From contig NZ_AP026695.1 in the NCBI RefSeq assembly GCF_025998175.1, forward strand, positions 1,494,581-1,558,580: 64,000 bases of DNA, read 5' to 3'. Source of the DNA: Nitrosopumilus zosterae (lineage in GTDB: Archaea > Thermoproteota > Nitrososphaeria > Nitrososphaerales > Nitrosopumilaceae). The notes below the pieces were generated by a model. It saw only the letters and a list, made by a program, of their open reading frames with translations. It had not been told where the DNA came from and did no database searches. The translations under genes were made by a program, and so were the position numbers. Shown piece after piece: positions 47,598-59,411 of this stretch (position 1 is its first letter; every line of letters starts with the position of its first letter).

Positions 47598-47672
47598 GGG
47601 CCGGTGATTTAGGGGTATAATGCCTCGTTCGCAACGAGGATGTCGAGGGTTCGATTCTCTCCCGGTCCACCA
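47598..47672 (+). tRNA. tRNA-Ala (anticodon CGC)
   Basis: GGGCCGG/CCGGTCC acceptor with G3-U70, short D arm, anticodon loop TTCGCAA, T loop TTCGATT, discriminator A and encoded CCA. Sharing the acceptor with the tRNA-Ala at 875. Confidence 0.95.
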
Positions 47673-48354: not shown

Positions 48355-48653
48355 TCGGTTAAAACATTTCTAATAAAGTATATTCCAGATGTCTGTCAAT
48401 CGTGATTTTGGTTTTAAAATCATTTTATGATAAATAAAACTTGTCAATTCAAAATCAAAAAAAATATAGTGTGGTCATAATAATTTCATAGTCATTCATC
48501 CATAAACATAATATTAAAAAAATTTTTGAATGTACAAAAGAAATTATTTGCAACCAGTAAAAATAGAATGTCTTCATCATAGGTATAAAAACAAACGGTG
48601 TACTAGAGGAATAATTTGAGTCAACATGAAAAGAAACGAATGAGAAAAAATAA
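48355..48653. other. AT-rich intergenic region, nothing recognised
   Basis: No open frame with support, no long inverted repeat and no tRNA found on either strand. Confidence 0.5.
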
Positions 48654-48806
48654 CTATCTCTTATTTTTACGATACGGAATTGAAATACACTTACTACAAA
48701 GATAAGATGGATCGGTGAGGAGATTAATACTAGCTTGTAGGTTATCTTTTGATTTACAGCACATACAAAATTTTTCTTTTGTTACTTTCTTTTTTTTCAC
48801 TTTCAT
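48654..48806 (-). CDS. Basic zinc-ribbon microprotein (50 aa)
   Basis: ATG at 48806; MKVKKKKVTKEKFCMCCKSK, then a spacer and YLCSKCISIPYRKNKR. CxCC and CxxC make a zinc knuckle flanked by very basic ends, suggesting RNA or DNA binding. Not recognised. Confidence 0.5.
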   Translation of the reverse strand: MKVKKKKVTKEKFCMCCKSKDNLQASINLLTDPSYLCSKCISIPYRKNKR

Positions 48807-48926
48807 ACTTTAACTCTCTTTTCATAATAATCTGCCCTTTAGCATTCATATGAACTCATTATTCGATACTGTTACCTCATCGTATCATACTAATATTAAT
48901 TGAAACTCTCACCAAGTAACTTTCCT

Positions 48927-49139
48927 TTATTTCTTAGTTGTCAACATTGTTAGAATAGTATCAATCTCTTTTTGATCATAATCTTTGATTTTCTTTAGTT
49001 CATAAGTATAGGTTGATGGATTTGTCTTTATTTGTTCTAACACAATTTCTTGCAATTTGTAAAGCTCTTTGCGAGTATGTTTTGATGTGGCAAGATATCT
49101 TTCATCATATTCAAATATTGGAGATTTTTGGTTTTCCAT
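48927..49139 (-). CDS. Hypothetical 70-aa protein
   Basis: MENQKSPIFEYDERYLATSK, then helices with ELYKLQEIVLEQIKTNPSTY and KKIKDYDQKEIDTILTMLT. Soluble, helical. It follows the secreted gene on the same strand by about 40 nt. Function unknown. Confidence 0.5.
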   Translation of the reverse strand: MENQKSPIFEYDERYLATSKHTRKELYKLQEIVLEQIKTNPSTYTYELKKIKDYDQKEIDTILTMLTTKK

Positions 49140-49179
49140 GTCTTTTCTTAATAAAAAAATAAAAAAAGGTTTTGGTCTC

Positions 49180-49902
49180 CTACCAAATAGATTGTAGCAC
49201 AGCTACAAGCTTAACTTTATCATTACCATAGATTGGTGTGTAAGCTACTGGAGATGGATAATCTTGTTGTATTGTTGTAGAACTTACTGTTTGTTGGAAT
49301 GTACCATAATTGTGTACTAACCCATCATTACTGTTAGTAATGTAAGGAGTAAAATTCACATTTGCACCATTAGCACCATTTGCTAGGTAATATTGATACC
49401 AAGTGTGTGCATAATCAGCACCCCATGAGCCTACCAAAGCTTGAGAAAATCCATTTGGGTCTGCACTGGTGATTGTATCCCAGTTACCGTTTGCAGTTCC
49501 ATAGAATCCCCATAGTTTGTAGTCAAAACCTACTTTGACTTTGACAGCATCATCACAAGAAGGACAAAATGACTGAATGGATTCAGAAGTTTCTTCGGGA
49601 GTATCATATTGTCTTTCTTCCTTAATGACCTCAAACTGTTCTTCAGTGTACAATCCTACAGAATTAAGAATTACCAAAAGGCGCTCTAACTGCTTTTGCA
49701 TTCTATCTATTTTGTTAGGATTTTGTTCTGTCTCTAGTTGTTCCATGAGAGCAGTAGCTTTGTTGGCTATTTTTTCTACATATTCCTTGTCGACTTCTTC
49801 TGCAACTGCATAATTCATTCCAGAGAAAGGAAGGATCATTGCAGCAATCAAAGAAGCAAACAATATTGTTTTGATTGTTTTTGTAGTCATTACTAATCCC
49901 AA
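49180..49902 (-). CDS. Secreted protein of unknown function
   Basis: A 240-residue protein with a signal peptide (TIKTILFASLIAAMILPFSGMNYAVA), a helical stretch (KIANKATALMEQLETEQNPNKIDRMQKQLERLL), one CxxC (FCPSCDD), and a beta-rich end with many aromatic and Asn residues. Looks like an exported, structural or binding protein. Its promoter holds the 20-bp palindrome at 49940, and a winged-helix gene lies directly upstream on the same strand. Confidence 0.6.
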   Translation of the reverse strand: MGLVMTTKTIKTILFASLIAAMILPFSGMNYAVAEEVDKEYVEKIANKATALMEQLETEQNPNKIDRMQKQLERLLVILNSVGLYTEEQFEVIKEERQYDTPEETSESIQSFCPSCDDAVKVKVGFDYKLWGFYGTANGNWDTITSADPNGFSQALVGSWGADYAHTWYQYYLANGANGANVNFTPYITNSNDGLVHNYGTFQQTVSSTTIQQDYPSPVAYTPIYGNDKVKLVAVLQSIW

Positions 49903-49939
49903 GTTTGGAAATTGCTAATAAGACAAACGCACTACATGG

Positions 49940-49959
49940 TACGTACTGATCAGTACGTA
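49940..49959. promoter_or_regulatory. Perfect 20-bp palindrome (operator candidate)
   Basis: TACGTACTGA followed by TCAGTACGTA. On the minus strand it lies between a TATA-like TTAAAAATAT (about 49959-49968) and the ATG of the secreted protein (49902), where a repressor would block transcription. The winged-helix gene ending at 49966 is the natural candidate regulator. Confidence 0.55.
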
Positions 49960-49965
49960 ATATTT

Positions 49966-50295
49966 TTAAGCTAACAAATGTGTCTGTTGTATTTTAACAG
50001 AATTGAGATCTTCACTTGCCAGAATTCTTTTTTTGCAAAATAAAATTCCCTCAGCAGAAAGATGTATTGAACTTGCATGTTTAAGATCAACACCTAATTC
50101 AAATTCAACAAAGCCCATCTTTGTGTGAAGCCATTTAAGATAACGCATGCAGCTTGTGTATTTCAGTCCAGATTTTGACGTAATCTGAGATTTCTTTAGC
50201 GAACCATTCTCATAAAAAGCAAGCATGATTCTCTCAACTACGGACCAATTTATGATATCCATTTCTTTGATATTAGAGTTGATTTTTTGATCCAT
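49966..50295 (-). CDS. Winged-helix DNA-binding protein
   Basis: A 109-residue protein: WSVVERIMLAFYENGSLKKSQITSKSGLKYTSCMRYLKWLHTKMGFVEFEL is a winged helix with a recognition helix around YTSCMRYLKWL, similar to archaeal ArsR-like or SSV-type regulators. It ends 6 nt from the palindrome, ahead of the secreted gene. Likely controls that gene. Confidence 0.65.
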   Translation of the reverse strand: MDQKINSNIKEMDIINWSVVERIMLAFYENGSLKKSQITSKSGLKYTSCMRYLKWLHTKMGFVEFELGVDLKHASSIHLSAEGILFCKKRILASEDLNSVKIQQTHLLA

Positions 50296-50525
50296 TTCTT
50301 ATCCTCCCAGAGTATTATTTTCATATTTTTGAGCATATAAAACATTACTGATGCGTTCTATGTACTACAATGATTTGCAAGGATCATCATATAGGAGAGG
50401 GGTAATTTTATAATCAGATAATCAGATTTTGTCCGATCTGAAATATACAATAAAATCGTATCCATAATTTTAAGATATTTATATACTCATAATGTCATAT
50501 TCTAAGAATTAAATAAAAGATTTAT

Positions 50526-50648
50526 GTGAAAATAATTGCTTTGCTGGAATTCAGATGCAAGACATGTGGCGTGACTTTGACCAGTGAGGGGTTTCTGAGA
50601 AGGCATTGCAAAGTGGTGCATAAAGAAAACAATGATTCTTGTTTTTAA
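50526..50648 (+). CDS. Single C2H2 zinc-finger microprotein (40 aa)
   Basis: GTG at 50526 (or an internal TTG). FRCKTCGVTLTSEGFLRRHC then KVVHKEN: C-x2-C-x12-H-x4-H, the classical finger. It opens the accessory island. May be an RNA or DNA binding factor. Confidence 0.6.
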   Translation: MKIIALLEFRCKTCGVTLTSEGFLRRHCKVVHKENNDSCF

Positions 50649-50789
50649 CAAAATAACGAGTGGTGAGAAACAAATATTTCACTTAGACATTTTTCCAATT
50701 ATTTTAGGCATATACTATATCCAGAAATTAATTTAATATGATTATATTCTAAAGGATCACTTTTTATTTCAATTTGCTAATCACAGCCT

Positions 50790-53072
50790 ATGGCTGAAGT
50801 TAGTACTACTAAAAATTTTAGAGCATTTCTCCATCATTTAGATCGAGAAATTAATGCAACAAAACCCTATAGATATTTAGTAATTGAAGCATTACTCAAT
50901 TCATACCCAAATCCATTATTGAAGAAAAATATTTCAGATTATCTACGAAATAATCTAAAAACAAATGAACCATTTGAACATTATAACATTTGGTCTCAAT
51001 TAACTGATAAGGATGAGTTAATAGTTGAAACTGAAAATGGATTTAAACTTAATATTGAAAACATATCAAATAATGAAAAAAATAGTTTGTTAAAAATTTG
51101 TATGAAAAGAATTTCAAATGTGGACACGGACTATAAACAAAATCTAAAACAACCTCAAGCATTTTCTACACCTAGTATAAATAATTATAATTTAACTCAA
51201 CCAGATAGAAATATTTCCAGAATTGGATACTATTTAGTTCGTTTTAGAAATAACAGTATAAGATATGGTGATTTTACCAAATTAGATAAAATTCAAAAAC
51301 ACAGTTTGAATTTGTCCAGAAATAAAATGAAACATTTCAAAATTAATGATAATAATAGAAATCTAGCAATTCTGTACGATACCAAAGCAAGTCAAATTAG
51401 AATTTGGGGAAGGGCTGAAATGGTACAAAAGTCACAATTTTCTCATACAACACCAAATATTACATTTAAAAATTTTGAACCACTTTTACAAAAAGATGGA
51501 ATAATTATTCCAAAATGGCTTTTACAACATGATAAGAGAGAATCTATGTTTGGAAATAAACCTATTCTAGTAATTAATAAAAATGATTTTGATCGAATAT
51601 TAAATTCTGCTGTGGAACAAGAAGATCTTTTTCCAACAGACAATACTTCTGATTCAGATCAATCAAGAAAAACAAATATAGAAAATTCTAAAGATGGTAA
51701 AGCAGTTACTTCAGAATCACAAATGAATGATTCAACTGCAAATGTGTTTGAAGATGGAGATGGTAATGAGTTTATAGAACAAATAAAACATTTAGAAAAT
51801 ATACCATTAGAAATACCTAATAAAGAAGTATTAGAGAATGGTATTAAAGAAATTCAAAAAAGTCTTTTAATTGACTCAAAAACAATAAAAGAAATTGTTA
51901 TTCATTTAACTAGCGGACGTAATATTTTACTTGCAGGCCCTGTAGGAACTGGAAAAACACATCTTTCTAAATTAATTCCTAAAATATTTTGGCAAAAAGA
52001 AGGAAAAGGATTCGATGTTAAAGTATACACTGCATCAAATGAATGGAATGTAAGTGATGTAATTGGAGGAATTGTGCCACGTATGCAAAACGGAAAACCA
52101 ATAGTGAAAATTCAACGTGGTTGTGTTACTGATACAATTAAACGAAATTGGGACAATAAAATTTTTGGGAATCAATCTCCATTTCGTGGAACATGGTTAA
52201 TAATCGATGAATTTAATCGTGCTGATATTGACAAATCATTTGGGCAATTATTTACATCGCTAGAATCAAAAGTTCTTCGTGTACTTGATGATAAAAACCC
52301 CACATTAATTGAAATGCAAATCCCTCTCGATTATAGGATAATAGGAACACTAAATACATCAGACAAGCATTATTTATTCAAATTATCTGATGCATTAAAA
52401 AGAAGATTTGCATATATTGAAGTAAAAACACCATTACGAAAGGATGCTGAACATGAAATTTATTTTGCGCTATCAAGAGCACTTGATGAACTTCCTTCTG
52501 ATGTTTCATCATTAATACAATTAAATTCAAATGAAGAGAAAGTTAGCAACGAACAATCCAATAATCAATTATATTTGGCAATAAGAAGTGCATATGAAAT
52601 TCTATCGTTTGTTAGAATTATAAAAGATATGGGAACAGCAATTCTAAAATCAATTTATCAATCTATGTTGATTGGAACACAAATCAGCGGATATGACAAT
52701 TCCATTTTAGACATATCCTTATGTGGAATTATAATACCACAATTAGAAAAAATTGAAGCTACAAATATTGAAGTTTTGTTACAATTTTGTTTTGATGATG
52801 TACATAGTTTCTTCCATAGAAAATATGATGGTACAGATGATGAAGATCGACAAAAATATGTAGAAGAATTTGAATTTTATTTGAAATATCTTCAAATCTC
52901 AGAGATTGAAAAATTAAAACAAGGTTTTTCAAGAAAAAACCTATCAAAAGAAAATTGGGATAGGATATTAGATAAATGGAGAATACAAAAATCAAAAAAT
53001 CAAATTCCAAAAGATCTACCGTTATTTAGAGATGCGTTAAAAGAACTGAAAAAAACATTTGAATTTTTATGA
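50790..53072 (+). CDS. McrB-like AAA+ motor of a type IV restriction-like system
   Basis: A 760-residue protein. An N-terminal helical region (residues 1-110, RYLVIEALLNSYPNP) looks like a DNA-binding winged helix; residues 140-270 form a beta-rich domain of unknown kind; AAA+ core from about 360 with Walker A AGPVGTGKTH (about 382-391), Walker B IIDEFNRAD (about 468-475) and the McrB-type NTSD motif (about 521) followed by LKRRFAYIEV. McrB proteins use GTP to drive a nuclease. The stop overlaps the nuclease start by 4 nt. Base composition is more AT-rich than the neighbours. Could also be a MoxR-like chaperone. Confidence 0.75.
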   Translation: MAEVSTTKNFRAFLHHLDREINATKPYRYLVIEALLNSYPNPLLKKNISDYLRNNLKTNEPFEHYNIWSQLTDKDELIVETENGFKLNIENISNNEKNSLLKICMKRISNVDTDYKQNLKQPQAFSTPSINNYNLTQPDRNISRIGYYLVRFRNNSIRYGDFTKLDKIQKHSLNLSRNKMKHFKINDNNRNLAILYDTKASQIRIWGRAEMVQKSQFSHTTPNITFKNFEPLLQKDGIIIPKWLLQHDKRESMFGNKPILVINKNDFDRILNSAVEQEDLFPTDNTSDSDQSRKTNIENSKDGKAVTSESQMNDSTANVFEDGDGNEFIEQIKHLENIPLEIPNKEVLENGIKEIQKSLLIDSKTIKEIVIHLTSGRNILLAGPVGTGKTHLSKLIPKIFWQKEGKGFDVKVYTASNEWNVSDVIGGIVPRMQNGKPIVKIQRGCVTDTIKRNWDNKIFGNQSPFRGTWLIIDEFNRADIDKSFGQLFTSLESKVLRVLDDKNPTLIEMQIPLDYRIIGTLNTSDKHYLFKLSDALKRRFAYIEVKTPLRKDAEHEIYFALSRALDELPSDVSSLIQLNSNEEKVSNEQSNNQLYLAIRSAYEILSFVRIIKDMGTAILKSIYQSMLIGTQISGYDNSILDISLCGIIIPQLEKIEATNIEVLLQFCFDDVHSFFHRKYDGTDDEDRQKYVEEFEFYLKYLQISEIEKLKQGFSRKNLSKENWDRILDKWRIQKSKNQIPKDLPLFRDALKELKKTFEFL

Positions 53073-54628
53073 ACAGATTAGAAATAATTAAAGAAATTCA
53101 TGATTTAACAATAAAAGAAAAGAAAAAGAAAATTCGTGAACAAATTAGAGGTAGATTAATTAATAAAAATTTCATAAATTCAGAAAAATCATTTTTTGAC
53201 GAGTGGGGCAAATCTGAAAACAAAGTTACAGGAGAACAATGGCATCAATTTGTAAGATTAGCAACAAATTTTGATGAATTTATGTATATGTTTCAAAGAG
53301 TGAATTGTCTTGTATCACGTTATAGAAAATCCACAGATGGGTATTTTAAAGCAAAATTTCAATCAGGGATAGCTGAATTACCGGATAGATCTTCAGAATT
53401 ACAACAGATTTTTACTTTTAGTCGAGAATATTTTGAAATATATAAAAAAATTATTAATCGAATGAATTTTGGACAAAATAAAATTGATTTTACTGGAGCA
53501 ATTAGAGGGAAAATAAATTGGAGTGAAACAATAAAAAATTCATATACAAATTTTCCTTCATCGTTTAAAACTTATGAATGGAAAAGAAAATTTGATGTGC
53601 CAGAGAATGTATTATTGGTTTGGATTTGTATTTGGTTAAATAAACAAATTGAAAAATTATTACAAGAAAATTTTAAAGATCCATTAGATTTTGATGAAAT
53701 AAAAAAATTAAAAGAAATATCTCTTAATTGTAAAAAAATTATTAAGTTTTTTCCATTTCAAGAAGTAATACAAACGGTAAGAGATAACTTTAGTTTAGAT
53801 ATAAAAAGTAAAAAAATACATGTGTTAGAATTAGAAATTAAAAATAGAATTAAAGAGGGACATATAGAAAATGAATCCTATTCAAAACTTCTAAAATGGT
53901 TTAGAAAAGTTAAAGGATTTAATTTTCCAAATATAAGAAAGAAAGACAGATCAGGTAAATTTCTTCGTGAAGCAACTAAAAATATTGATGAAATGTATGA
54001 AATATGGATATTTTTTGAGATATTGCATTATTTTACTAAATATGTAGATGTGAAACTTGAATTAAATTCAATGCCTCACTTCCTTCAATTTACTCTAAAT
54101 CATCAGGAAGTGAAATTATATTATGAAAAAACTTTTGTTGAAGATGAAAGTTTTGCATGGGTAAATACACATGAGCCAGATTTTACAATTCAAACAAACC
54201 AAGAAATAATTGGCGTATTAGACGCAAAGAATTATAATTTTCCAGATGAAGATGCACCAAAAAACAAAATCTTAGCATACATGACTAATTTAGGAACTGG
54301 TTATGGCGGTATAATATGGCCTAAAGATTCAATGGAGTATATTTTTCCTAGAAATAATAAATCAGATTCTACAAAATATCATAAAAATCTCAAACTTGTG
54401 TTTTATTCATTAAATCCTAATACCATTATGAATCAAACAAATATTCTAGAAACAGTTTTAGAAAAAATTTATTTGGAAATTAGAAATAGATTAGAATCTG
54501 CAACAAAATGTCCAAAATGTGGAATAGTTGCAATAGGTAATTCAGAGATAGAACGATTATTTGGATACAGAAAAATGGGTGAAATCACCAGAGTTCAGTC
54601 ATGGTGTAGAGAGTGCAGAAGTTTATAA
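53069..54628 (+). CDS. McrC-like nuclease with C-terminal zinc knuckle
   Basis: A 519-residue protein co-translated with the motor. Its last third has EPDFTIQTNQEIIGVLDAKNYNF (about residues 369-390): a PD...DAK pair that fits a PD-(D/E)XK active site as in McrC and DUF2357 nucleases. A C-terminal CPKCG ... CRECR (about 480-517) adds a zinc finger not found in E. coli McrC. The N-terminal 300 residues are helical and unlike known McrC. The call rests on motif and gene order, so it is tentative. Confidence 0.65.
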   Translation: MNRLEIIKEIHDLTIKEKKKKIREQIRGRLINKNFINSEKSFFDEWGKSENKVTGEQWHQFVRLATNFDEFMYMFQRVNCLVSRYRKSTDGYFKAKFQSGIAELPDRSSELQQIFTFSREYFEIYKKIINRMNFGQNKIDFTGAIRGKINWSETIKNSYTNFPSSFKTYEWKRKFDVPENVLLVWICIWLNKQIEKLLQENFKDPLDFDEIKKLKEISLNCKKIIKFFPFQEVIQTVRDNFSLDIKSKKIHVLELEIKNRIKEGHIENESYSKLLKWFRKVKGFNFPNIRKKDRSGKFLREATKNIDEMYEIWIFFEILHYFTKYVDVKLELNSMPHFLQFTLNHQEVKLYYEKTFVEDESFAWVNTHEPDFTIQTNQEIIGVLDAKNYNFPDEDAPKNKILAYMTNLGTGYGGIIWPKDSMEYIFPRNNKSDSTKYHKNLKLVFYSLNPNTIMNQTNILETVLEKIYLEIRNRLESATKCPKCGIVAIGNSEIERLFGYRKMGEITRVQSWCRECRSL

Positions 54629-55059
54629 TTCAAATTATTGTATAATGAGATTAAAAAAATGAAATTTCAATTAACAAGAACCTCATTACTATCTCTTCTG
54701 CAACAGATAAGGTACCACTAAAATCCAAAATTACATCTTTTATTTTCTGGAATTTTACATTTTTTTAAACTCTGCTTTTTTTCAGGTTTGATATTAGAGA
54801 GAATTTACATTCTATAAAATATTAGGTTTAGTTACGCATAATTTTTACGTTTGAGTATTTGTTGTGTAAAAAGTGTTCAAAATGAAAAAATTGGCTAAAG
54901 AAAATTGTATATAATAATCTTAAATAGAATAAAGATATAGATTATTGTTTAGAGATCACCTATTTGTTAAAACTTTATGAGAGAATCAATTCACACATAA
55001 AACTGATAGTACAAAGCAGTTACAAACCGTAAAAGATTTGTCAATAATACTAAAGGTTG
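54629..55059. other. Intergenic region of about 430 bp
   Basis: Very AT-rich, no supported ORF, tRNA, or long inverted repeat. Possibly promoter of nothing seen; may be element junk. Confidence 0.5.
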
Positions 55060-55365
55060 TCAATTCGGAAGTTGTTCATTTTGTATATTCAAAGGAAGAT
55101 CCAAGGGAGTAAGTTCATGTTTGATTGTTCTAATTTCATATATACAATTTTGTAGTATTTGTTCCAATTGTTCTAGTTTTTTGTAATGTTCTTTTCTTAA
55201 TTTACGGCGTGTTTCTTCAGATTTGTAGACATTATAATCTGTGTTGAATCTATGTCCACACTTACTACATTGCCCATCACTTCGTCTACAAGGGAATATC
55301 CATGCACATACAGGACATTGAACATTTCGTTTTTGTCTATCAAGATGATACCACATTCCACCCAT
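55060..55365 (-). CDS. Zinc-ribbon protein with coiled-coil tail
   Basis: 101 residues. MWYHLDRQKRNVQCPVCAWIFPCRRSDGQCSKCGHRF gives CxxC, C, CxxC zinc ligands; the rest is a basic helix (SEETRRKLRKEHYKKLEQLEQIL). Probably nucleic-acid binding. ATG at 55365. Part of the accessory island; role unknown. Confidence 0.55.
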   Translation of the reverse strand: MGGMWYHLDRQKRNVQCPVCAWIFPCRRSDGQCSKCGHRFNTDYNVYKSEETRRKLRKEHYKKLEQLEQILQNCIYEIRTIKHELTPLDLPLNIQNEQLPN

Positions 55366-55555
55366 GATAAAGATAACAATATAATAATTAAAAAATATTA
55401 CTATATAACAAAAAATGGCAAATATTAAACTAATAAAAATATTATTATCTACCTAAGAATGTTTTTCATGCCTAATTAAAGATAAAAATTTAGTTATACA
55501 CCTAACAAAGCGACAAACAGAGAATTTTTAAGCAAGGAAGAAGAGTAATAGTAAA

Positions 55556-55630
55556 GTGAGACCGGAGGGAATTTCGCCCTCAACTAATCCTCCGTCAATG
55601 GATTGCTTTGTAATTAAGCTACGGCCTCAC
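55556..55630 (-). ncRNA. tRNA-like cloverleaf RNA (non-canonical)
   Basis: Read on the minus strand, 75 nt fold with no mismatch: 9-bp acceptor-like helix (GTGAGGCCG/CGGTCTCAC, one G-U), 2-nt connector, 4-bp D-like stem GCTT/AAGC with 7-nt loop, 5-bp anticodon-like stem AATCC/GGATT with 9-nt loop ATTGACGGA, 4-nt variable loop, 5-bp T-like stem GAGGG/CCCTC with 7-nt loop CGAAATT, directly abutting the acceptor as in tRNAs. The G-U pair would be A-C on the plus strand, so the minus strand is favoured. The D loop lacks GG and the T loop lacks TTC; CCA is not encoded. A TATA box (TTTATATA, about 55655-55665 reversed) lies about 30 nt upstream. Not a normal tRNA. Confidence 0.6.
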
Positions 55631-55654
55631 TTTATTCTCACTTAACTAGTATTT

Positions 55655-55665
55655 ATGTATATAAA
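55655..55665 (-). promoter_or_regulatory. TATA box for the cloverleaf RNA
   Basis: Minus strand TTTATATACAT lies 25-35 nt upstream of the 5' end of the cloverleaf, the normal archaeal distance. Confidence 0.5.
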
Positions 55666-55825
55666 TTAAAAGAATGATCGTATATTTTAGCAAATTAATG
55701 AATTTAGGCATAAAATTTACTTGAAAAATGAAAAACATCATAAATAATCTGATCGACAATGTTTTATGTATGAAGAATATAATATGTATTGGAGGATAAA
55801 GTAAGAATAAATTACAAACCAAGAA

Positions 55826-56947
55826 ATGAGTGAAAAAAAAGAAAAATCAAACCCCAAAATGGGAAAACGCTCTAAAGAGCATTTATTTCCGCGTGACACG
55901 TTAAAACGATCCTTAAACGTATCACACGCAATATGGGAACAGAATGGTGGGAATCCTTTCAACATTTTAGACTTAGCACCACAAGTAGGGTACTCACCAA
56001 ATAGTAGTGGATTTCGAGTATTATTAGCATCGTCATTCAGATACGGATTAACGGAAGGCAGTCACATTACTAAAATTATTTCACTTACAAATCTAGGCAA
56101 ATCTATTGTAGCACCATTAGAACAAACAGATGTTGGAAGTATGTTACGACAGGCTTTGTTACATAACGATTTGTTTGCAAAAGTATACAAACATTTTGAC
56201 GGAAAACCCATACCAAAAAAAGAAGTTCTTCGAAATACGCTAGTACATGATCCTTCAATGGGCGGATTTGGGATTCCAAGAGAAGATGTAGAGTCATTCA
56301 TAGACATATTCATACAAAATATAATAGATTATAATTTAGAACAAGATATTCGTGGTACAAATTATTTAAGATTAGACAAACTCAGTACGTCAAACAATAT
56401 AGAAAGTGAAGATAAAGACATGCAAGATGTAGAATTTGAAGAAGAAGATGAAGAAAACAAAGAACAAAAACCAATAATTAAAGAACAGAAATTATCAGAA
56501 ACAGAAACACCAAAAGTATTCATCTCACATAGCAAAAACAAGAAAATTTTAGAGCAAATTAAACAAATGTTACAGTTTGGAAAATTCGAATATGAGATTG
56601 CAATAGAAACAGAAACAACAGCTATTCCAATTCCTGAAAAAATTTTTGGTTTGATGCGAGAATGCACTTGTGCAGTGATAAATGTAAGTGCTGATGAATC
56701 AGAGAGAAAAGAAGATGGGAGTTATGGAGTAAATCCAAATGTCTTAATAGAAATAGGAGCAGCATTTCTAAGATATGATAAAAGAGTAATTTTATTGGTA
56801 GATAAAAAGGTAAAACTTCCCAGCAATTTACAAGGATTGTATCAAACATATTATGAAGGTAATGAGTTAAGTTGGGACACAGCTATGAAATTACAAGAAT
56901 CATTGTCAAAGTTCAGAGACAATAAAACTAATGCAAAGATTGAATGA
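55826..56947 (+). CDS. TIR-like nucleotide-binding effector with N-terminal winged-helix region
   Basis: A 373-residue protein. The C-terminal third (from about 228) reads TPKVFISHSKNKKILEQIKQML, CAVINVSADESE, and NPNVLIEIGAAFLRYDKRVILLVDK: strand I, the late conserved Glu (IEIGA) and the strand after it, as in the TIR-like nucleotide-binding family (PF10137-like) linked with NAD-degrading defence proteins. The N-terminal 190 residues look like two helical winged-helix units (RDTLKRSLNVSHAIW ... GFRVLLASSFRYGLTEG) as in DUF5343-type proteins; an acidic linker (EEEDEENKEQ) joins them. Likely a defence effector; NADase activity is inferred. Confidence 0.7.
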   Translation: MSEKKEKSNPKMGKRSKEHLFPRDTLKRSLNVSHAIWEQNGGNPFNILDLAPQVGYSPNSSGFRVLLASSFRYGLTEGSHITKIISLTNLGKSIVAPLEQTDVGSMLRQALLHNDLFAKVYKHFDGKPIPKKEVLRNTLVHDPSMGGFGIPREDVESFIDIFIQNIIDYNLEQDIRGTNYLRLDKLSTSNNIESEDKDMQDVEFEEEDEENKEQKPIIKEQKLSETETPKVFISHSKNKKILEQIKQMLQFGKFEYEIAIETETTAIPIPEKIFGLMRECTCAVINVSADESERKEDGSYGVNPNVLIEIGAAFLRYDKRVILLVDKKVKLPSNLQGLYQTYYEGNELSWDTAMKLQESLSKFRDNKTNAKIE

Positions 56948-56995
56948 AAAAAGTAAATCACATACGTAATCGAAAAAGAGATGCCACATACCGTA

Positions 56996-58345
56996 TCAAT
57001 TCATCATTATACCTTTAATTTTTCTTTGAAAATCTTTCTGGGTTCTTTTTCCATACCATTTCTTCAAGGTTTCAGTGCCTTCATGTGACATTTCAGCAAC
57101 CAGATTGTAATTGTAATCAGTTGCAATAAGCCACATTTGGATTCCAAAATGCCTAAAACCGTAATTGGCTCTGAAATAAAGTCCAAAATCTGATTTTTTA
57201 AAACCTATCATAGACAGGATTTTTTTGAAAAACTTGTTATCCCTAGCTACCGAACTAGTCAAAATTTTATCATATGTTTTAAATTCAAATTTAGTATCAT
57301 TATCTTCCCAAAACAGATATTTTTTTCCTTGTGATACTCGTGTATTGTAAAATTGTTCTAATGGTTCAACAAATTCAGGATCCAAAATGTATTTATCAAA
57401 ATCATCATGGGTTTTGTTTTCATGGACTTCAATGTGACATATTCTTCTAACGTAAGTGTAGATCTTATCACCTCTAAATTTTGCATATGATATAACTTTT
57501 TCATCAGTTAATTTTACACCATCTGTGCCTTCTACATATTCAACTATCTGGTCAATGAAATCCATTTTTGCCAATTCAATCAAGTAAACTGTAGAGGGTC
57601 GAACAAAAGTCCATGTCTTGACGCCAAATTTTAGATAATCTTCAATAGAGTAATGTTTTAACAGTAATTTTTTTGCTTGTACAATTTGTTCTGGTGTGAT
57701 ATGCAAGTCTGAGGATTTTTCTTTTGGTTTTTGTCCACTAATTCTTAATTTGATTCCCTCATCTTTGCTAATTTCTATCCCCAATCCATATTTTAGAGCG
57801 TGTCTTATTGCCTGTCTGTTTGACCAGCTAGGTTCACCATCAACAACATCATAATTGGCAACATCTATCAATGCATTAACCATATTTGGAATGATTTCTT
57901 TCCAATTTTCTTTGGTAATGTTATCAGGATGTATTTTGAATTTGGGTGTTACAAAACCCAATACAATTCTGGCAAATCGTGTCTGATTTTTATATTCAAA
58001 TTTTGAATGATTGTTTCTAGTCCAATTTTTGAATAATTCAGTCTTGAAAATTTCATATTCTGAGCGTAACTGTTTTTGAATTGTGACAATTGTGTTTTTT
58101 TGCCCTGTTAATTGGTAATAGTTGGATCCAGCAACTTTGACAATTAATCCTTCATTTCGCATTGGATATAGATGATTTCTTGAAAATGCTTCTCTTGTTT
58201 GATGAAAGTGTTTTGATAATTCAGTAGGGGTATGTGGTTTTTTTAGAATTTTTAAAATTTCATTTCTAATATCGGCTTTTGAGATTATTACTCTACTCTT
58301 TCTTGAATGAGTAAGAGGAATTTTTGTACTTAGATCACTGTACAA
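56996..58345 (-). CDS. Divergent tyrosine recombinase/integrase
   Basis: A 449-residue protein. An N-terminal winged helix (EILKILKKPHTPTELSKHFH), a SAM-like helical middle and a C-terminal catalytic region with YGFRHFGIQMW (box II Arg, about residue 398), MSHEG (His, about 421) and WYGKRTQ (Tyr, about 431) that match the R...H...Y of tyrosine recombinases; the His of HxxR is not kept. An earlier VRRICHIEV may hold Arg I. TTG start at 58345. It makes the island look like an integrated element. Attachment sites are not found. Confidence 0.65.
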   Translation of the reverse strand: MYSDLSTKIPLTHSRKSRVIISKADIRNEILKILKKPHTPTELSKHFHQTREAFSRNHLYPMRNEGLIVKVAGSNYYQLTGQKNTIVTIQKQLRSEYEIFKTELFKNWTRNNHSKFEYKNQTRFARIVLGFVTPKFKIHPDNITKENWKEIIPNMVNALIDVANYDVVDGEPSWSNRQAIRHALKYGLGIEISKDEGIKLRISGQKPKEKSSDLHITPEQIVQAKKLLLKHYSIEDYLKFGVKTWTFVRPSTVYLIELAKMDFIDQIVEYVEGTDGVKLTDEKVISYAKFRGDKIYTYVRRICHIEVHENKTHDDFDKYILDPEFVEPLEQFYNTRVSQGKKYLFWEDNDTKFEFKTYDKILTSSVARDNKFFKKILSMIGFKKSDFGLYFRANYGFRHFGIQMWLIATDYNYNLVAEMSHEGTETLKKWYGKRTQKDFQRKIKGIMMN

Positions 58346-58370
58346 TCATCCCAACCCCTACTAGTGGGAC

Positions 58371-58384
58371 TGAGATTAATCTCA
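58371..58384. promoter_or_regulatory. 14-bp perfect palindrome upstream of the integrase
   Basis: TGAGATTAATCTCA starts 26 nt upstream of the integrase start codon, overlapping the expected core promoter. Candidate operator. Confidence 0.4.
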
Positions 58385-58568
58385 TAATTGTATATGAAAA
58401 GATTTTGACTCTTTCCCACTTGTTTTCTCAACAAAAAATGATAATCATGCAAGTTTTAAAATCTTACTGAAAAACGGTATCAGCAAAATGATAATCAGGC
58501 ATCAATATAGGTAAAATTTGTAGAAATCGGTCAACGTATTACTTGATTCAAAACTTTCATGGAATCAG

Positions 58569-58791
58569 TGTCCGACAGTAGGAAGCCAAAATGAATTTGT
58601 TGAGAAAACATAGGGAATCCATACCATCGGACATTATTTTCATGACTTCATTTCTATAAAAAATGATGGATCATGTCATTTGACATGAAAAAGGCAATAT
58701 CATGAGGCTTTCATTTTTTGAAAATGGTTTCCATTTTCATTTTTTCAAGTGTATGAACTATTTTGTGAGTTCACATTTTTCATTTGAATGA
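58569..58791. repeat. Cluster of inverted repeats beside the integrase
   Basis: Within 223 bp: TGTCCGA (58569-58575) and TCGGACA (58627-58633); TCATGTCA TT TGACATGA (58671-58688); TGAAAATGG TTT CCATTTTCA (58719-58739); TGAACT 8 nt AGTTCA (58754-58773); TCATT TG AATGA (58780-58791). No ORF lies here. Such density suggests recombination site, origin or regulatory region of a mobile element. Confidence 0.55.
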
Positions 58792-58921
58792 GCGTGTAAT
58801 AATAAAAAATGATTATTTTTCAAAAGTGTGGGCTCATGAAAAAAATGGTTACAAAATGGAACGTAAAATGAGATTTTTGGTACATTTAATGGAGTGAAAA
58901 AACGTGGGAATGAAATATTTC

Positions 58922-58933
58922 GTGAACATTCAC
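58922..58933. repeat. Short inverted repeat GTGAA CA TTCAC
   Basis: A perfect 12-bp inverted repeat in the same non-coding region, 122 nt before the gene at 59055. Confidence 0.3.
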
Positions 58934-58963
58934 AAATGAAATCATTTTGTTAACATCACGCTA

Positions 58964-58988
58964 TATGTCACGTTTTATGTCACGTTTT
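58964..58988 (+). repeat. Tandem 12-bp repeat before the 59.05-kb gene
   Basis: TATGTCACGTTT occurs twice in tandem with a 12-bp period, about 67 nt upstream of the start of the zinc-ribbon gene. May be a binding site; it shares TGTCA with other sites in the window. Confidence 0.35.
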
Positions 58989-59054
58989 GTGCCTAAAAGA
59001 CAGCAAAAAAGTGTTTCCAGAAACTATTATACATAAATAAAAAATATAATTATC

Positions 59055-59411
59055 ATGGAAGTTTTTGACGGCAAAAAAGCTGCACAGGATTACATGTCAA
59101 AACATACTTTGGCGTTTTCAACTCCAGAACTAACTCTAATGAGATTTGCATTTTGGTTAGGTGATTCAGTACCAGATCCAAAAAACGAAGGAAAGGGAAT
59201 TCCAAGAATGATGACATATTTGACTGAACAAGATTTTCAACCAGTACTTATTGATGATGATAAATACGAACCATCTGGTGCAGTTAGAAGTTCAGCAAGT
59301 GTTGGAAATGCGTACAAGGAAGTAAAAACAGATGGAAAGTTTTGTTCAGAATGCGGTACTAGTCTATCTGCTACGGCAAAGTTCTGTCCAGAATGCGGTA
59401 CAACACAATAA
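59055..59411 (+). CDS. Zinc-ribbon protein (118 aa)
   Basis: N-terminal helical part (MEVFDGKKAAQDYMSKHTLA ... LMRFAFWLGDSVPDP) and a C-terminal zinc ribbon FCSECGTSLSATAKFCPECGT. The next two-gene group carries the same kind of ribbon. Cytoplasmic; role unknown. TATA box about 26 nt upstream (ACATAAATAAAAAATA). Confidence 0.6.
   Translation: MEVFDGKKAAQDYMSKHTLAFSTPELTLMRFAFWLGDSVPDPKNEGKGIPRMMTYLTEQDFQPVLIDDDKYEPSGAVRSSASVGNAYKEVKTDGKFCSECGTSLSATAKFCPECGTTQ

Follow-up and report, generated by a model that had tools for sequence, protein, structure and literature searches.

A 75-nt element of tRNA ancestry was found on the minus strand of the window (the whole 64-kb stretch of DNA that was analysed). 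Its stems are intact, its elbow is lost, it is closed by a 13-bp helix and it lies within an island. The best explanation, put tentatively at a probability of about 0.4, is that it is a gene for a structured RNA which derives from a tRNA, does not decode and is retained for its fold, and that a 10.6-kb integrated mobile island carries it as cargo. The genome is a single contig of 1.775 Mb, and its relatives form a single genus of ammonia-oxidising archaea (AOA).

Fold of the element and tRNA ancestry

The element and its arms were located as follows.

55556 to 55630, minus strand: tRNA-like cloverleaf of 75 nt, with canonical tRNA positions 1-73 at 55628-55557 (RNAfold, RF00005)
55605 to 55619, minus strand: D arm GCTT-AATTACA-AAGC, with TAC in place of GGN at positions 18-20; A14, A15 and A21 kept
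55586 to 55604, minus strand: anticodon arm with loop TTGACGG, U33, anticodon GAC at 55594-55596, an A31.A39 mismatch and A26-U44
55565 to 55581, minus strand: T arm GAGGG-CGAAATT-CCCTC, with CGA replacing T54 T55 C56; G53:C61 and A58 kept

When positions 55556-55630 of the minus strand were folded with RNAfold, the minimum free energy structure and the centroid were the same 23-pair cloverleaf (-25.7 kcal/mol, z -3.34), which reproduces the coordinates, the strand and all 23 pairs of the sequence-only reading. The Rfam tRNA model RF00005 matched 55557-55628 (minus strand) with 44.9 bits (E 2.5e-6 in the 64-kb window) against a curated cut-off of 29 bits. The element is therefore derived from a tRNA and did not arise by chance. 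In the standard tRNA register its body has 72 nt with arms of 7-4-5-5, the acceptor stem is GAGGCCG/CGGTCTC, A73 is present and 20 of the 21 canonical pairs are intact. A permissive cmscan against Rfam (E up to 1) returned only tRNA and a chance match to MIR529.

A chance cloverleaf in AT-rich intergenic DNA would agree with the single copy known, but it is excluded for practical purposes. Besides the E value given above, none of 200 shuffles folded as well as the element with its flanks, and the tRNA consensus is matched at U8, A14, A21, U33, G53, A58 and C61.

Ranked by RF00005 score with the real tRNAs of the whole genome, which scored 41 to 70 bits, the element came 36th of 42; two partial matches lay near 31 bits. 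Partial tRNA matches of 31 bits, not called by ARAGORN, lie at G000:C1:59733-59798(-) (L017) and 189353-189409(-) (L034); by eye these are tRNA-Arg(CCT) and initiator tRNA-Met with D-loop introns.

Bases kept and lost in the arms

The element had been said to break every tRNA consensus. This proved too strong, as many consensus bases and core contacts are retained. Like the canonical archaeal tRNA (RF00005), it has arms of 7-4-5-5, a 72-nt body, U8, A14, A21, U33, G37 (R37), G53:C61 and A58, together with A9, A26 and a 5-nt variable loop. The core contacts U8:A14 and R15:Y48 are present (T8, A14, A15, T48). The 15:48 pair is A:U in the element against G:C in 26 of the 27 own tRNAs, so, relative to the host, both bases have changed and the pair has been kept.

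Unlike the canonical archaeal tRNA, the element lacks G18 and G19 as well as T54, T55 and C56, has the A31.A39 mismatch and extends its acceptor helix to 13 bp through the discriminator base. The D loop AATTACA without GG and the T loop CGAAATT are as had been read from the sequence. The anticodon loop had been given as 9 nt because A26-U44 was counted as a stem pair; in the standard register it has 7 nt (TTGACGG), and its central GAC holds. That no CCA is encoded is true of the element but uninformative, as only about 9 of 39 tRNA genes in this genome encode it.

The elbow is defined by the contacts U54-A58, G18-U55 and G19-C56 (PMC7912444). All five of the bases G18, G19, T54, T55 and C56 are changed, which places the element outside this definition, and none of these contacts can form in the usual manner. 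The D-loop GG is present in every one of the 27 class I tRNAs of the genome. When the conserved loop positions were summed, the element scored -5.0 and the own tRNAs 8.8 to 30.4 (leave-one-out). An alternative kissing pair between the D and T loops (AAUUAC with GAAAUU) forms 5 of 6 pairs (P 0.03 on shuffled loops), and as a substitute contact it is suggestive only. The sequence-only reading had named a normal tRNA as an outcome against itself, and this is not what the element proved to be.

It is unlikely, though conceivable, that the element is a mobile-element tRNA which still decodes valine GUC/GUU without the standard elbow. Some mitochondrial tRNAs decode in this way. The RF00005 score lies inside the range of the genome's real tRNAs, and U8, A14, 15:48, A21, U33, G37, A73 and the 7-4-5-5 arms are all present. 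Furthermore, a tRNA-Asp with a D loop just as short is encoded on an AOA contig that carries plasmid- or virus-like genes. Against this, five nearly universal bases are lost, the loop-position score lies below that of every own tRNA, the discriminator base is paired by the 13-bp helix, ARAGORN does not call the element as a tRNA and a normal tRNA-Val(GAC) exists in the genome.

The contig just mentioned (G212 contig C8, L043) has 11 kb, is mobile-element-like and carries actin-like and toxin-antitoxin-like ORFs in plasmid- or virus-like surroundings. Its tRNA-Asp(GTC), at L043 3807-3879 on the plus strand with the 7-nt D loop AATCGTA, is the nearest parallel to the element in mobile DNA. The two share the 7-nt D loop, the 72-nt body and the T-loop end AATT, and the tRNA-Asp(GTC) scored 43 bits with the covariance model of the element. 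Unlike the element, it has a normal TTC in the T loop, is called by ARAGORN and bears another anticodon.

Closing helix and promoter

The acceptor helix had been described as having 9 bp. When the flanks were included in the fold, the closing helix was in fact 13 bp long.

55622 to 55634, minus strand: 5' strand of the closing helix, TAAAGTGAGGCCG, the 7-bp acceptor plus 6 pairs outwards (fold of 55540-55645)
55552 to 55564, minus strand: 3' strand of the closing helix, CGGTCTCACTTTA, the partner of TAAAGTGAGGCCG (fold of 55540-55645)

The discriminator base lies paired within this helix. Beyond the 13 uninterrupted pairs there is a 3x3 loop, followed by 5 further pairs (z -4.15 for the element folded with its flanks). 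The outward extension of 6 pairs was the largest among the 42 tRNA-like loci of the genome, the next largest being 4, and had P 0.006 against shuffled flanks.

Bacterial Y RNAs (YrlA) are tRNA mimics in which a tRNA-like module is closed by a long helix, and the element shares both of these traits. Membership of the Y RNAs was considered and rejected, as no Y RNA match was obtained in Rfam at E up to 1.

The TATA box that had been proposed upstream was found in an AT-rich region.

55658 to 55665, minus strand: TATA-like box TTTATATA (sequence)

The centre of TTTATATA lies 33.5 nt upstream of tRNA position 1, and its distance to the base of the 13-bp helix is 27.5 nt. The latter is the usual archaeal TATA spacing, given a transcription start at the base of the long helix. 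A promoter motif derived from 39 own tRNA genes (BRE-TATA, centre at about -31.5) scored TTTATATA poorly, and the case for this box as the promoter of the element is a weak one.

Genomic setting

The element had been placed between a zinc-ribbon gene and a TIR gene in an accessory island. This was borne out by an insertion that carries defence genes.

48390 to 59021, no strand: 10.6-kb insertion with the element; TTCCAGA at 48383-48389 and 59015-59021; empty site in the relative G122
50790 to 54628, plus strand: McrB-like AAA+ ATPase and McrC-like PDDEXK protein, the nuclease assignment being weak
55060 to 55365, minus strand: zinc-ribbon-like ORF of 101 aa, which shares its strand with the element and begins 190 nt downstream of it
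55826 to 56947, plus strand: protein with a TIR domain (Pfam CAP12-PCTIR_TIR, 59.5 bits), oriented divergently to the element
56996 to 58345, minus strand: integrase-like ORF of 449 aa, whose homologues in G002 and G323 are 85-87% identical to it

Comparison with the empty site of G122, whose flanks are 95-98% identical to the window, set one junction at 48389/48390 and the other at about 59021. The element is absent from the empty site of this 98%-identical relative, which indicates that it arrived with the recently inserted island and can be regarded as horizontally acquired cargo. In most of the 20 congeners compared, the gene at 59055 follows tRNA-Ala(CGC) directly or one gene later. The site is empty in most congeners, and in G002 it holds an integrase-like gene of 87% identity with other cargo beside it; for this reason the insertion site is taken to be an integration hotspot. 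The 7-bp repeat TTCCAGA comes close to the short att repeats of integrated Thaumarchaeota elements, which are as short as 8 bp, with a median of 17 (PMC6563490).

The integrase-like ORF had no Pfam or PDB match; a C-terminal H...WYG motif, seen by eye, marks it as a putative tyrosine recombinase. Its homologues occur in many AOA genomes, and a more distant one in G055 adjoins MGE-like genes. No homologue of the zinc-ribbon ORF was found among 95 congeners or in IMG/VR. Another ORF of the island, at 49180-49902 (minus strand), adjoins a winged-helix ORF; it seems to encode a signal peptide and matched nothing in Pfam. In G323, an Rfam DUF3800-X RNA (L248 8884-8976, minus strand, 49.2 bits) lies beside a DUF3800-like ORF and also adjoins the integrase homologue of 85% identity; it is another small RNA carried as cargo next to such an integrase.

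The minus and plus strands of the element region give the same folded shape. Together with the integrase-like gene nearby, this would suit a structure at the DNA level instead of an RNA, namely a cruciform through which the island recombines or replicates. Such a role is very improbable, however, since the likeness to tRNA is one of sequence beyond shape, the ends of the insertion lie at distances of 7 and 3.4 kb and homologous integrases have no such element beside them.

tRNA-Ala(CGC), at 47598 in the window and for example in G165, occupies the same chromosomal site. It was dropped as the integration target, as the empty site of G122 puts the junctions elsewhere. The two have the same length and a 7-nt D loop and align without gaps, with 42 of 72 positions identical for the copy of G165. 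In contrast, six to nine of the stem pairs have both partners changed, the element lacks G3:U70 as well as the elbow, and no long match is shared with the adjacent copy. By this comparison, tRNA-Ala(CGC) is not demonstrably the parent of the element.

A tRNA fragment left at an att site was also rejected, as the element is full length and internal to the insertion and TTCCAGA is the sole end repeat. Like the attR partial tRNA copies described in archaea (PMC9897764), it is an extra non-canonical tRNA-like gene near an integrase; unlike them, it is full length, internal and has no matching full copy as a direct repeat.

Search for relatives

Whole-genome searches covered about 730 genomes. BLAST with the element DNA gave nothing in 100 relatives, and no similarity was found in phages and plasmids. 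With a single-sequence covariance model, no elbowless relative was detected across 400 genomes from the order and 398 from the phylum; strong matches, where inspected, were ordinary tRNAs (Ala, Asp, Arg, Ile, Phe, Met) with TTC in the T loop. Degenerate patterns for both odd loops in IMG/VR and GTDB, and for the T, D and anticodon arms in IMG/VR, matched at the level that a model assigns to chance. No such element adjoined the homologues of the TIR, zinc-ribbon and integrase-like genes, or stood alongside 21 further tRNA-Ala(CGC) sites.

Homologues with compensatory changes had been expected of a new elbowless tRNA-like family. As far as the collections reach (genomes, IMG/VR, GTDB, phages and plasmids), no independent one was found, a result that the sequence-only reading had itself named as counting against it. 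A specific role as a defence RNA, suggested earlier, did not gain from these searches either: TIR and integrase homologues occur elsewhere without such an element, and the neighbourhood is the sole link.

Decay or retention

In a single-rate model, the loss of five elbow bases with at least 20 of 21 pairs kept had a likelihood of at most 2.4e-6, and the same losses as one block event per loop 1.5e-3; the model is a rough one of our own, applied to one sequence with a canonical ancestor assumed. The joint loss of both D-loop/T-loop partners over intact stems thus fits simple neutral decay poorly, as the sequence-only reading had proposed. This argues, within the model, that the stems were retained while the elbow disappeared.

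A possible alternative is a relic, a functionless tRNA gene carried or left by a mobile element, in which a few events changed the loops and the stems survived by luck. TTC to CGA and GG to TA could be two block changes, at the likelihood of 1.5e-3 just given. The island has an integrase-like gene, the anticodon is redundant, A31.A39 is mismatched and no relative was found. There is also a precedent, as non-canonical tRNA copies from element integration occur in archaeal genomes (PMC9897764). On the other hand, the element is not an att copy, being full length, inside the insertion and without a long match to the adjacent tRNA-Ala(CGC), and its stems are intact and its helix extended, yet the most conserved loop bases are totally lost. 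Compared with a non-decoding RNA, the relic is nearly as likely, and a marginal decoding tRNA less so.

Discussion

We propose that the non-decoding RNA gene gives a minus-strand transcript whose 5' end falls close to the base of the 13-bp helix. The cloverleaf core (8:14, 15:48) would be tRNA-like and the D and T loops undocked. As a consequence of this undocking, the RNA would be a poor substrate for RNase P, CCA addition and elbow modification and would not decode. A decoding role is unnecessary, since the genome's own tRNA set is complete and ordinary, including Val GAC, TAC and CAC. From a single sequence and an assumed canonical ancestor, we infer that the fold has been conserved.

With its ends locked by the long helix and its elbow open, the RNA may have enough likeness to tRNA to be bound and too little to be matured and used. 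By mimicking tRNA it could then serve as a stable bait or as a sensor, to which a protein that recognises tRNA would bind; this protein might belong to the island, to the host or to an invading virus. The role as bait or sensor is the weakest step, its basis being location alone, and we know of no island protein that binds tRNA. That the mimic was purpose-built for the island defence module, so that a viral or host tRNA-targeting factor cleaves or binds it and the TIR or McrBC-like system responds, is an improbable elaboration.

RNase P, modification enzymes and the ribosome all recognise tRNA by its elbow. If expressed, the element would be a rare prokaryotic tRNA-like RNA with a cloverleaf and a core but without an elbow. 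Because it lies in a mobile defence island, one could then test whether tRNA mimics serve such islands as baits or sensors. If the element is instead a relic, it would be a clean case of non-canonical tRNA genes arising from mobile DNA in archaea.
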